The position numbers and the translations under genes are program-made. Positions 59,682-62,403 of a stretch of 64,000 nucleotides of DNA are shown one piece after another; position 1 is the stretch's first letter; each line of letters starts with the position of its first letter. Source of the DNA: Natrinema sp. HArc-T2 (lineage in GTDB: Archaea; Halobacteriota; Halobacteria; Halobacteriales; Natrialbaceae); contig NZ_JBGUAZ010000005.1 of assembly GCF_041821085.1 (NCBI RefSeq), forward strand, positions 124,001 to 188,000. Reading direction: 5' to 3'. Under the pieces are notes generated by a model. It was not told where the DNA came from, searched no databases, and saw only the letters and a list, made by a program, of their open reading frames with translations.

Positions 59682-61631
59682 CTATATCTCCCGCACGTAC
59701 GAATACGAATCCGAGAGCGCTTCGGCGTCCTCACGGAGCAAGGCGACGACGAGACAATCGGCATACTCTTCGAGATACTCGACGAGGGCGGCGATCCGAT
59801 CCGAGTCGATCGCCTCGAGCGAATCGAGCAGCATGAACGGAACGACATCGTAGACATCGTGAACCAGATAGCCGGCGAGTGCAAAGACGAGACCCGTGAC
59901 CTCGCGTTCGCTCTCGGAGAGGTGATCGATAGTGTCCTCGTAGCTCGTTCCGTCCGCGGTTGAGCGGACGATATGCAGATCGAACGTCGTTTTCGTGACC
60001 GTCCGACGACCCTCACGGACCGTCTTCTCGCGGCGGTCGATCCAGATGCGGTCGAGGTTCTCGTACTCGAGTAGCGAGAGAATCGAGTCCATGTGCTCGT
60101 TGAACGCGTCGACGGCGGTTTCCTCGAGCCGGTCGACGCGGGTCCGACACTCGGTGAGTTTTGCGTCGATCGTCTCGCGCCGCTCCTCGAGGTCGTTTTT
60201 GTCTGCGAGTGTGGCCTCGATCTCGTCGATTCGGGTCTGCACCTCGTCACGTTTGGCCTCGAGAGTCTCGCGTTCGAGTTCGAGGCGATTCAGTTCGCGG
60301 TGGGTCTCGATGACGTCGCTATACTTGGCGTTCTCGAACGTTTCGGCGTCTGATTCGAGGTCGTCGATACGAGCTCGCTGCTCGTCGCGTTCGGCTTCGA
60401 GGTCCTCGATGCGTTGCTGTCGGCGCTCGAGATCGTCCTCGATTGCCGAGAGCCGCGTTTCGAGCTCGCCCCGTCGTTGCGACCGCTCGCGAAGCTCCTT
60501 CCGGCGTGTCGTGAGGTCATCGATCTGCGTCTGTAAGTCGCGTCGCTCGTCGAGTTTGTGCTGCCGCAGCGACCGGAGGCGCTCGAGCGTCGACTCGATT
60601 CGGCCGCGGTCGACGCGCGAACCACACGTCCAGCAGACGACGTCGTCGGCGAGCAGTTGCTCGGTGATGTCGCCGTCAGTTTCGGCCTCCGAGTCGGCTG
60701 CTTCCTCGAGAGCGAGGTCGACGCCGTCGTCCCCGAGTCGAGCCTCATTGAATCGGATCACACTCTGGAGTTCGCTGACGGTCGTATCGAGCGACCGCTT
60801 GCGAGTTCGAAGCTCCTGAATCCGTCCCTCGAGTCGGTCCGGCGAGTCGTGCTCGTCGTCGAGGGCGGCCAGTTCCGCCTGCAGGTCGTCGCGTTCGGCC
60901 TCGAGTTCGGCGTAGCTCTCTCGCTCGGTCTCGAGGTCGTACTCGATGGACTCGAGTTCAGTTCGTGCCGCCTGCAGGTCGGCAAACGCCGACTCGATTG
61001 CGTCTTTCCGAGCGTGGCTCGCCTCGATGTCGAGTTCGAACTCGTCGAGGTCGGTTTCGAGGGCGGTGATCCGGTCGGTTATCGACTCGATCTCGTCGTC
61101 GAGGGCGGTTCGTTCTTCTTCGAGCCCGGGGAGTTCAGTTTCGAGCTGTGCGAGTTGCTCGAGCCGGTCGTCGAGGTCGCGTTTTTCGGCCTCGAGGGAT
61201 TCGATTTCGGCCTCGATCTCGTCCGTATCGATCGGTCGCATGATGAGCTCGCGGAGGTCGTCGCCGTTTCTGACGGCGCGGCGTGCTTCGTTGGACTCGA
61301 GTTGGAAGGCAAAGAGATCAGCCAGTTCCGGATCGTCGAGGTAGGGCTCGCCGTCGAAAACGACCTCGCCGTTTCGCCGCTCGAGCACGCGCGTGTACTG
61401 CTGGCCGTCGAGTGTCAGTTCGACTCGACCAGCGTCTGCGTCACCTTTTAGCGAGGGGTGGCGGCTTCCCAGCGCTGCCATGATCGTCTGGAGAAACGAC
61501 GTTCGGTTCGTCGCGTTCCGGCCAGTCAGCACGTTGACGCCAGGAGTGAGTATTACCGATGTACTGTCGATACCGCCGATATTCTCCGCCAGAACGGTAA
61601 TCGAGGAGGAGACTGACGCTGGAGATGACAC
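59682..61631 (-). CDS. Archaea-specific SMC/Rad50-related protein
   Basis: The 649-residue ABC-type ATPase has a Rad50-like layout. Residues 1-130 form the N-lobe; the P-loop position is GRNATNRTSFLQTIM (G37-S45), with N-R in place of the usual G-K. Two long acidic coiled coils (about 130-330, 340-545) flank a zinc hook (CWTC near residue 330). The C-lobe has the signature LSESEREVTGLVFALAGY and Walker B VPFMLLDSLEAID. It is 106 bases downstream of rdfA. In Haloferax the equivalent gene pair is known as rdfA-sph3, tied to rod shape; the role is not clear. Confidence 0.88.
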   Translation of the reverse strand: MSSPASVSSSITVLAENIGGIDSTSVILTPGVNVLTGRNATNRTSFLQTIMAALGSRHPSLKGDADAGRVELTLDGQQYTRVLERRNGEVVFDGEPYLDDPELADLFAFQLESNEARRAVRNGDDLRELIMRPIDTDEIEAEIESLEAEKRDLDDRLEQLAQLETELPGLEEERTALDDEIESITDRITALETDLDEFELDIEASHARKDAIESAFADLQAARTELESIEYDLETERESYAELEAERDDLQAELAALDDEHDSPDRLEGRIQELRTRKRSLDTTVSELQSVIRFNEARLGDDGVDLALEEAADSEAETDGDITEQLLADDVVCWTCGSRVDRGRIESTLERLRSLRQHKLDERRDLQTQIDDLTTRRKELRERSQRRGELETRLSAIEDDLERRQQRIEDLEAERDEQRARIDDLESDAETFENAKYSDVIETHRELNRLELERETLEAKRDEVQTRIDEIEATLADKNDLEERRETIDAKLTECRTRVDRLEETAVDAFNEHMDSILSLLEYENLDRIWIDRREKTVREGRRTVTKTTFDLHIVRSTADGTSYEDTIDHLSESEREVTGLVFALAGYLVHDVYDVVPFMLLDSLEAIDSDRIAALVEYLEEYADCLVVALLREDAEALSDSYSYVREI

Positions 61632-61737
61632 GATCGTTGGTTCTCGCCGGCCAATATAAATGTTATTTGGTTACAGGTACCGCTTGCCGTCTCGGACGGA
61701 TGTCTAGCAGCGAGTTCCGGGAGGAGACCGTCTCATG

Positions 61738-62364
61738 CTACGAGCCGTCGGCACCCTCACAGTCACAGCCACCCTGCTCGAGGAGTGACGCGATCGGGTA
61801 ATCGGCCCCACAGTTGCCACAGATCGTCCGGACGTCGACGAACACCTCGTAGTCTCGCTCCGCGATCTCTCCTGCCTTCCCTAGTTCCTCGAGCGTGGAT
61901 TCGGTGACGACTTGCGTTCGACCGGCGAGTCGCTGGACGGTCTCGGTCTTTCGCTCGAGTCGGTCGTCGGTGTCCGCTTCGGGAAGCGATGCATCGCGGA
62001 CGTCCGTCAGGTACGTATAGATCGTTTGATGCGTGACGAAGTCCGACCTGACCGCATCGATATCGACGCCCGTTCGTTCCAGTTCACGGCGCTTTCTGAC
62101 CGCGTCGGACCGAGACACGTCGTCGTCTGTCAACGTCCGATAGAGTGTTTCGATGTCGGACTCGACCATCGAGCCGCCAGCATCACGGACGGCTGCTCGA
62201 AGGACGGCCCTGTTGAGTTCGGCTGCGAGATCGCGAAGACTCGTTCGCTCCGTCCCGTCGCCGACCCACTTCGCCTCGAGACGGGCCCCCCACGACTCGA
62301 GGTCGTACTCGTCTATCACGCGCTCGACTTTGGTTCGACGGCGGCTACTCGAGTCGTCAGCCAT
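61738..62364 (-). CDS. rdfA: RdfA-type rod-determining factor
   Basis: The 208-residue protein starts MADDSSSRRRTKVERVIDEY. The sequence is helical up to about residue 170, with GARLEAKWVGDGTERTSLRD and LAAELNRAVLRAAVRDAGGS among the conserved-looking segments. The C-terminus has CGNCGADYPIASLL and GGCDCEG, a probable zinc site. It resembles RdfA of Haloferax, which is needed for rod-shaped cells. The SMC-like gene follows in the same orientation, so they likely form an operon. Confidence 0.85.
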   Translation of the reverse strand: MADDSSSRRRTKVERVIDEYDLESWGARLEAKWVGDGTERTSLRDLAAELNRAVLRAAVRDAGGSMVESDIETLYRTLTDDDVSRSDAVRKRRELERTGVDIDAVRSDFVTHQTIYTYLTDVRDASLPEADTDDRLERKTETVQRLAGRTQVVTESTLEELGKAGEIAERDYEVFVDVRTICGNCGADYPIASLLEQGGCDCEGADGS

Positions 62365-62403
62365 ACCGAATGCCAGTGATGCCCATCGTACAAATGTTGT
62401 GGT

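Follow-up and report, generated by a model that had tools for sequence, protein, structure and literature searches.

An rdfA–sph gene pair of a Natrinema genome belongs to a known haloarchaeal module and carries altered Walker motifs

How a coiled-coil ATPase of a type that acts on DNA could control the shape of a cell is the question raised by two adjacent genes in a 64,000-nucleotide stretch of DNA from Natrinema sp. HArc-T2, referred to here as the window. The original prediction named them rdfA and an SMC/Rad50-like gene and considered them the best candidate for an undescribed archaeal system. Both open reading frames are present side by side on the minus strand, with rdfA upstream, sph downstream and a gap of 106 bp between them. 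The two names are borne out by matches to PF21811 and NF045487 and by the SMC/Rad50-type head of the second protein. The genes and the elements that precede them are as follows (positions are those of the window):

62389–62398, minus strand: AACATTTGTA, promoter-like element, 34 nt 5' of the rdfA ATG
61738–62364, minus strand: rdfA, 208 aa, ATG start; RdfA family, PF21811 match
61655–61664, minus strand: AACATTTATA, TATA-box-like element, 33 nt 5' of the sph GTG
59682–61631, minus strand: sph (ASRP), SMC/Rad50-like coiled-coil protein, 649 aa, GTG start; NF045487 match

The pair is a good observation, but of an already published system. The ASRP family, which includes Sph and coalescin and has a zinc hook, was defined in 2022 (PMC9389158), and a 2024 study presented RdfA jointly with Sph3 (PMC10869688, Nat Commun). 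That study named RdfA (HVO_2174) in Haloferax volcanii and reported that the ΔrdfA and Δsph3 (HVO_2175) strains are both disk-only and non-motile, that deleting rdfA alters many proteins, and that 42 of 54 RdfA genes in 24 genomes adjoin SMC-like genes (PMC10869688). In another study of 2024 all four H. volcanii sph genes were deleted, each deletion lowering the survival rate in a gene-conversion assay; the Δsph3 strain forms no rods, the Δsph2 strain is mainly rods, and sph2 and sph4 could not be lost together (PMC11276520). The abundances of RdfA and Sph3 drop together under a quorum signal (PMC12240190, 2025). A 2026 paper (PMC13286277) credits Sph3 with keeping the plate shape, which contradicts its cited source (PMC10869688). 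Few archaeal shape determinants are known besides RdfA and Sph3, and the statement in the original prediction that the mechanism of shape control is unexplained still stands; no report of a physical interaction, of nucleotide binding or of hydrolysis for RdfA or Sph was found in the open-access literature.

The counterparts of H. volcanii RdfA and Sph3 were taken to be the Haloferax chromosomal-type loci L174, L175, L180 and L181, picked by synteny. The gene order of L175, rdfA-sph-HalOD1-ThiS, fits HVO_2174 to HVO_2177, the last of which we take to be the ThiS-like modifier SAMP3. These loci share with the window the same two families, the rdfA-then-sph order on one strand, the hook and the derived ATPase motifs, but the identity is only 45–47% for Sph and 34–36% for RdfA. 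Against the Haloferax plasmid-type paralogue the values are 49% for Sph and 41–44% for RdfA, and in Haloferax BLAST finds its best matches among plasmid-type paralogues. Two trees, one of 119 rows and an IQ-TREE tree of 44 rows, group the window sequence with Natrinema and further haloarchaea and outside the Sph3 clade; constraining the two to group is 27.4 log units worse, with a marginal AU p of 0.0435 that amounts to a weak rejection. No ddfA-like HalOD1 gene was seen adjoining the window pair. The window pair is thus probably a paralogue, and not a 1:1 orthologue, of HVO_2174/2175, and a role in setting rod shape is therefore not simply transferable to it. That role holds for Haloferax RdfA, as the disk-only deletion strain demonstrates (PMC10869688); it is not established for the window copy, which the trees put in another clade, because the H. 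volcanii paralogues have opposite effects on shape.

The supposed functional link between the two genes was supported by their distribution. Among 97 Halobacteria genomes, RdfA and an ASRP are both found in 81, neither in 15, RdfA only in one and an ASRP only in none (Fisher p 1e-16, phylogeny ignored), and the 15 joint absences are spread over about ten genera. Overall, RdfA is present in 260 of 292 genomes. An RdfA gene lies within 2 kb in 105 of the 122 sampled Sph loci, mostly at less than 250 bp, and about 14% have no RdfA nearby. In these 105 loci RdfA is upstream on the same strand in 66, downstream on the same strand in 29, divergent in nine and convergent in one, and on the Sph tree these four arrangements require a minimum of 11 changes. 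Mirror-tree comparison of RdfA and Sph distances gives r = 0.918; when partners were exchanged only inside genomes with several pairs, the null was 0.683 ± 0.066 and none of 2000 swaps was as high as observed. With main-type Sph only, the correlation is 0.824 against a null of 0.557 ± 0.10 (again 0/2000 as high). This comparison shows RdfA and Sph to be, as far as distances can tell, inherited as cognate pairs, a pattern that linkage alone can also produce. The rdfA–sph unit in the window is one such pair; the module is known from haloarchaea, where it has undergone duplication and has been transferred between the chromosome and megaplasmids. We did not find the co-occurrence, the adjacency kept through at least 11 order changes or the within-genome tracking of partners in the open literature. 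Co-occurrence this close to perfect, together with the cognate pairing, is a reason to study RdfA as the obligate partner of Sph. Three genomes possess, in addition to a complete pair (L027, L029 and L031), another closely similar sph that lacks a neighbouring rdfA (L028, L030 and L032).

The motifs that define the Sph protein are located as follows:

61497–61523, minus strand: derived Walker A GRNATNRTS, aa 37–45, G to N and K to R at the G-K positions
60621–60635, minus strand: zinc hook CWTCG (C333-W-T-C336-G), aa 333–337, mid coiled coil
59904–59921, minus strand: signature LSESER, aa 571–576, in 83 of 83 sequences
59805–59834, minus strand: derived Walker B MLLDSLEAID, aa 600–609, catalytic Glu replaced by Ser604

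Sph matches the NCBIfam family NF045487, 'archaea-specific SMC-related protein', with 695.5 bits (cut-off 300) over 593 of 593 positions. Its AlphaFold2 model (pLDDT 87) has an SMC-type head and a coiled coil with breaks around residues 200 and 433; the head superimposes on solved SMC and Rad50 heads with VIA Z 19–22. The protein scores below the NCBIfam Rad50 equivalog cut-off (58.8 of 700 bits) and below those for SMC (45.5 of 729 and 40.2 of 567 bits, TIGR02168/02169). Head, coiled coil and zinc hook are common to the window Sph and to other ASRPs such as H. salinarum Sph1/Sph2 and the Sulfolobus coalescin ClsN (PMC9389158). Rad50/SbcC, which is among the best fold matches, shares the same three features; Sph, however, is shorter and has non-canonical Walker A and B motifs, and no Mre11 gene was seen next to the pair. 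Canonical SMC, MukB, Wadjet JetC and Lamassu LmuB have the SMC-type fold in common with Sph, whereas Sph carries a zinc hook in place of the SMC hinge and matches the SMC, MukB, JetC and LmuB profiles far under their cut-offs or in the coiled coil only; no kleisin, Jet or Lmu genes were seen beside the pair. The zinc hook noticed at first reading is present and kept across homologues, as CWTCG in 83 of 83 sequences and, in the larger set, in 110 of 112, the other two having CWSCG. The signature had been called Rad50-like; the LSESERE of Sph resembles instead that of the ASRPs, not the LSGGE of Rad50, and LSESE is also carried by the non-halobacterial L112 and L113.

The first reading was also correct that the P-loop is without the usual G-K, since GRNATNRTS stands where GxxGxGK[ST] is expected. 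It overlooked that the Walker B glutamate is replaced as well (LLDSLEAID). NATNRTS, CWTCG, LSESERE and the Walker B D-S are all invariant in the 83-sequence set. An extended set holds 122 ASRP sequences, 112 of the main Sph type, a few loci being overlapping fetches of one gene. In all 112 haloarchaeal main-type proteins the Walker A Lys is Arg and the Walker B Glu is Ser; the P-loop reads NATNRTS in 109, NATHRSS in two and NEADRTP in one. The last belongs to a Haloferax plasmid-type pair (L176, 6396–9185) in which the Sph signature, LPTSE, is also further decayed and the RdfA is normal. Most loci were fetched by a scan with the motifs DDLRE[LI]IM and AV[ED][AQ]FNEH, so sampling did not favour any particular P-loop, and the 112/112 invariance rules out chance conservation of the odd P-loop. 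The invariance of the site over this range means that the altered site is under selection and not decaying. The Rad50 of the same genome is canonical (GVNGSGKST, LILDEPTVFLD and LSGGE), as is the P-loop of its SMC (GPNGSGKSN).

The window Sph does not have a Walker A with G-K[ST]; its membership of NF045487 stands nonetheless, because the Arg is a clade-wide trait. In contrast, the ASRPs sampled outside Halobacteria have a GK[ST] P-loop (L110 NASGKTS, L111 NAVGKSS, L112 NATGKSS, L114 NTAGKTS and L130 NAVGKTS, and also L113). Their Walker B has DE in L110, L111 and L114, and the residue at the Glu position is N in both L112 and L113 and is D in L130, so that loss of this Glu is not unique to Sph. 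The DELTYLD of L110 aligns gap-free and with equal spacing with DSLEAID, which fixes the assignment of the Glu-to-Ser change. A sister haloarchaeal subfamily (L109, L124–L128 and L178) keeps G-K (NWQGKSS, NFQGKSS) and has Gly or Arg in place of the Glu. The simplest order of change would be that the Glu was lost first, at the root of the haloarchaeal ASRPs or earlier, and that G-K was then changed to N-R in the main Sph type. Judged on the alignments, the uniform loss of both catalytic residues in Sph is a new and testable point. No discussion of it was found in the open-access literature on RdfA and Sph, and the relevant passages of PMC9389158 record both Walker motifs without remarking that the Lys and Glu are absent.

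This family-wide loss of two key catalytic residues shifts the default model for Sph from an SMC motor towards a clamp or scaffold. Walker A K-to-R changes often allow binding and block turnover, and in Rad50/RecA-type NTPases hydrolysis is usually abolished or strongly slowed; the stable, non-hydrolysing ATP site of CFTR has Ser at the Walker B Glu position. On these two precedents we tentatively favour, at somewhat below an even chance, a cognate RdfA–Sph complex that is held by nucleotide, hydrolyses it slowly or not at all and serves as a clamp or scaffold. Sph would dimerize via its zinc hook and SMC-type heads and would bind nucleotide, with hydrolysis made slow or absent by the K-to-R and E-to-S changes, and would thereby act as a held clamp and not as a cycling motor. 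RdfA would be its dedicated partner, which may load, position or regulate it. The complex might then bias cells to one shape through DNA, in keeping with the gene-conversion phenotype, and/or through a cytoskeleton-like role, and different paralogous pairs could push shape in different directions. A bolder version, which we hold a little more doubtful, is that haloarchaeal Sph gave up ATP cycling altogether, the Glu being lost first and N-R then fixed in place of G-K, and that with RdfA it became a permanent nucleotide-held clamp or filament that sets shape.

The main rival to the clamp takes Sph for an active ATPase whose site has been rewired, with Arg43 serving for Lys and Glu606 for Glu, and has the pair cycling on DNA in the manner of a small SMC or Rad50 complex. 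Arg is able to replace the P-loop lysine in some NTPases, and Arg43, Asp603 and Glu606 are all invariant in main-type Sph, which suggests a nucleotide site that is used; Sph may therefore still hydrolyse ATP. Glu606, two residues past Ser604, could be a displaced catalytic base and is the chief reservation about the clamp. The predicted head fold is also intact, and sph deletions impair gene conversion (PMC11276520). However, Glu606 lies in the D-loop stretch, where the G-K homologue L110 has Thr and the sister subfamily has Gly, and the usual effect of the K-to-R change in Rad50/RecA-type proteins counts against turnover, so that this rewiring is considered rather unlikely.

The RdfA protein matches PF21811 with 250.9 bits (cut-off 27) at residues 11–203, over its whole length in the profile search. 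The AlphaFold2 model (pLDDT 92) is helical with a Cys-rich C-terminal end, which holds one further feature:

61759–61821, minus strand: RdfA zinc-ribbon-like motif C182-x2-C185...C200-x-C202, conserved Cys pattern

C182, C185 and C202 are found in 71 of 73 rows and C200 in 64 of 73. The RdfA proteins of L122 (3369–3914) and L123 (3372–3917) are without the C-terminal zinc-ribbon cysteines and are partnered by a diverged Sph. The RdfA fold has no sequence match in the PDB, no Foldseek match at E ≤ 0.001 and a VIA Z of at most 4.3, the best weak match being sigma-factor region 4 (Z 4.3 over 46–61 residues, which is noise level). A kleisin comparison likewise gave no PDB sequence match, no Foldseek E ≤ 0.001 and no VIA Z ≥ 5, and a kleisin or Mre11-type partner role for RdfA found no support in these searches. 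A regulatory unit has also been considered, in which RdfA binds DNA or RNA polymerase and Sph is a chromatin protein, the two switching on a rod programme of archaella and chemotaxis. The many proteins that change on RdfA deletion (PMC10869688), the zinc-ribbon-like C-terminus and, at noise level, the sigma-factor region 4 match are in its favour, but RdfA has no sequence or convincing fold match to a DNA-binding family (PDB, Foldseek and VIA), and such a unit seems less likely still than the rewired ATPase.

At the DNA level, AACATTTGTA is found before rdfA in 9 of 11 close relatives (the window included in the count). The position of AACATTTATA is kept with near-identical letters in Natrinema relatives, and TTTATA also occurs in L026, L029 and L031. 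The two elements are nearly alike and both are kept among close relatives; as they stand 33 and 34 nt before the two starts, rdfA and sph probably each have a promoter of their own, and the sph transcript is probably leaderless. In the genome from which the window comes, rdfA is matched four times and sph three times. The rdfA beside its second sph (G000:C10:70233-70748, L003) has an internal TGA and its profile match starts at position 21; an intact near-copy without adjoining sph lies about 23 kb off on the same contig (G000:C10:46699-47277, L002). With so many copies and one rdfA already broken, the window pair could be redundant, without a clear function of its own, the task being carried out by a different pair of this genome. 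This is improbable given that the window pair is intact, that Natrinema relatives keep it at 76–92% Sph identity, that the promoter elements are conserved and that Natrinema zhouii (L019) has a window-type pair on its chromosome.

The window neighbours that were examined are CBS-domain, YdjM-like and other non-Lmu open reading frames, and the best LmuB match of Sph covers coiled-coil residues 266–498, where a Lamassu assignment calls for a match to the LmuB head with LmuA/LmuC neighbours. A Lamassu- or Wadjet-related defence system recruited to shape control is highly improbable: PADLOC LmuB and JetC profiles do match Sph (E 2e-15 and weaker), LmuB is among its fold matches, RdfA–Sph pairs are frequent on megaplasmids and some non-halobacterial ASRPs adjoin AAA+ and PAPS-reductase (BrxP/SspD-like) genes, but the top matches fall in the coiled coil, the window pair was not seen to have an Lmu/Jet effector gene next to it, no PADLOC profile matches RdfA, and presence in about 85–90% of the class with shape and recombination phenotypes is unlike a defence island.

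RdfA occurs on 124 haloarchaeal plasmid records, and a 1.6 Mb plasmid of Natrinema gelatinilyticum (NZ_CP100757.1) has eleven RdfA-like places on one record. A phage origin was rejected, as neither RdfA nor Sph is present among 50,697 phage records. On a 164 kb non-halobacterial contig (G311:C2; L131, 3476–6151) an RdfA (35.7 bits, Pfam cut-off 27) lies immediately downstream of an ASRP whose P-loop is canonical. This extends the RdfA–ASRP pair beyond Halobacteria, since Schiller et al. (PMC10869688) covered haloarchaeal genomes only; we did not find such a pair outside Halobacteria in the open literature. Three further non-halobacterial loci, L130 (978–7461, G311:C1), L133 (2913–9094, G295:C6) and L134 (2969–9224, G352:C27, placed here by gene order only), have a conserved ASRP gene set. 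It consists of a zinc-finger protein, an AAA+ ATPase (IetA/TRIP13-like), an unassigned open reading frame, a canonical-P-loop ASRP, a zinc protein (alignment A7) and a PAPS-reductase/4Fe-4S protein. Homology of RdfA to this zinc protein was unsupported (hhalign probability 0.6%, E 0.098). The PAPS-reductase/4Fe-4S protein matches BrxP (E about 1e-50) and SspD (1e-21), and by its gene content the set is possibly an undescribed modification or defence module.
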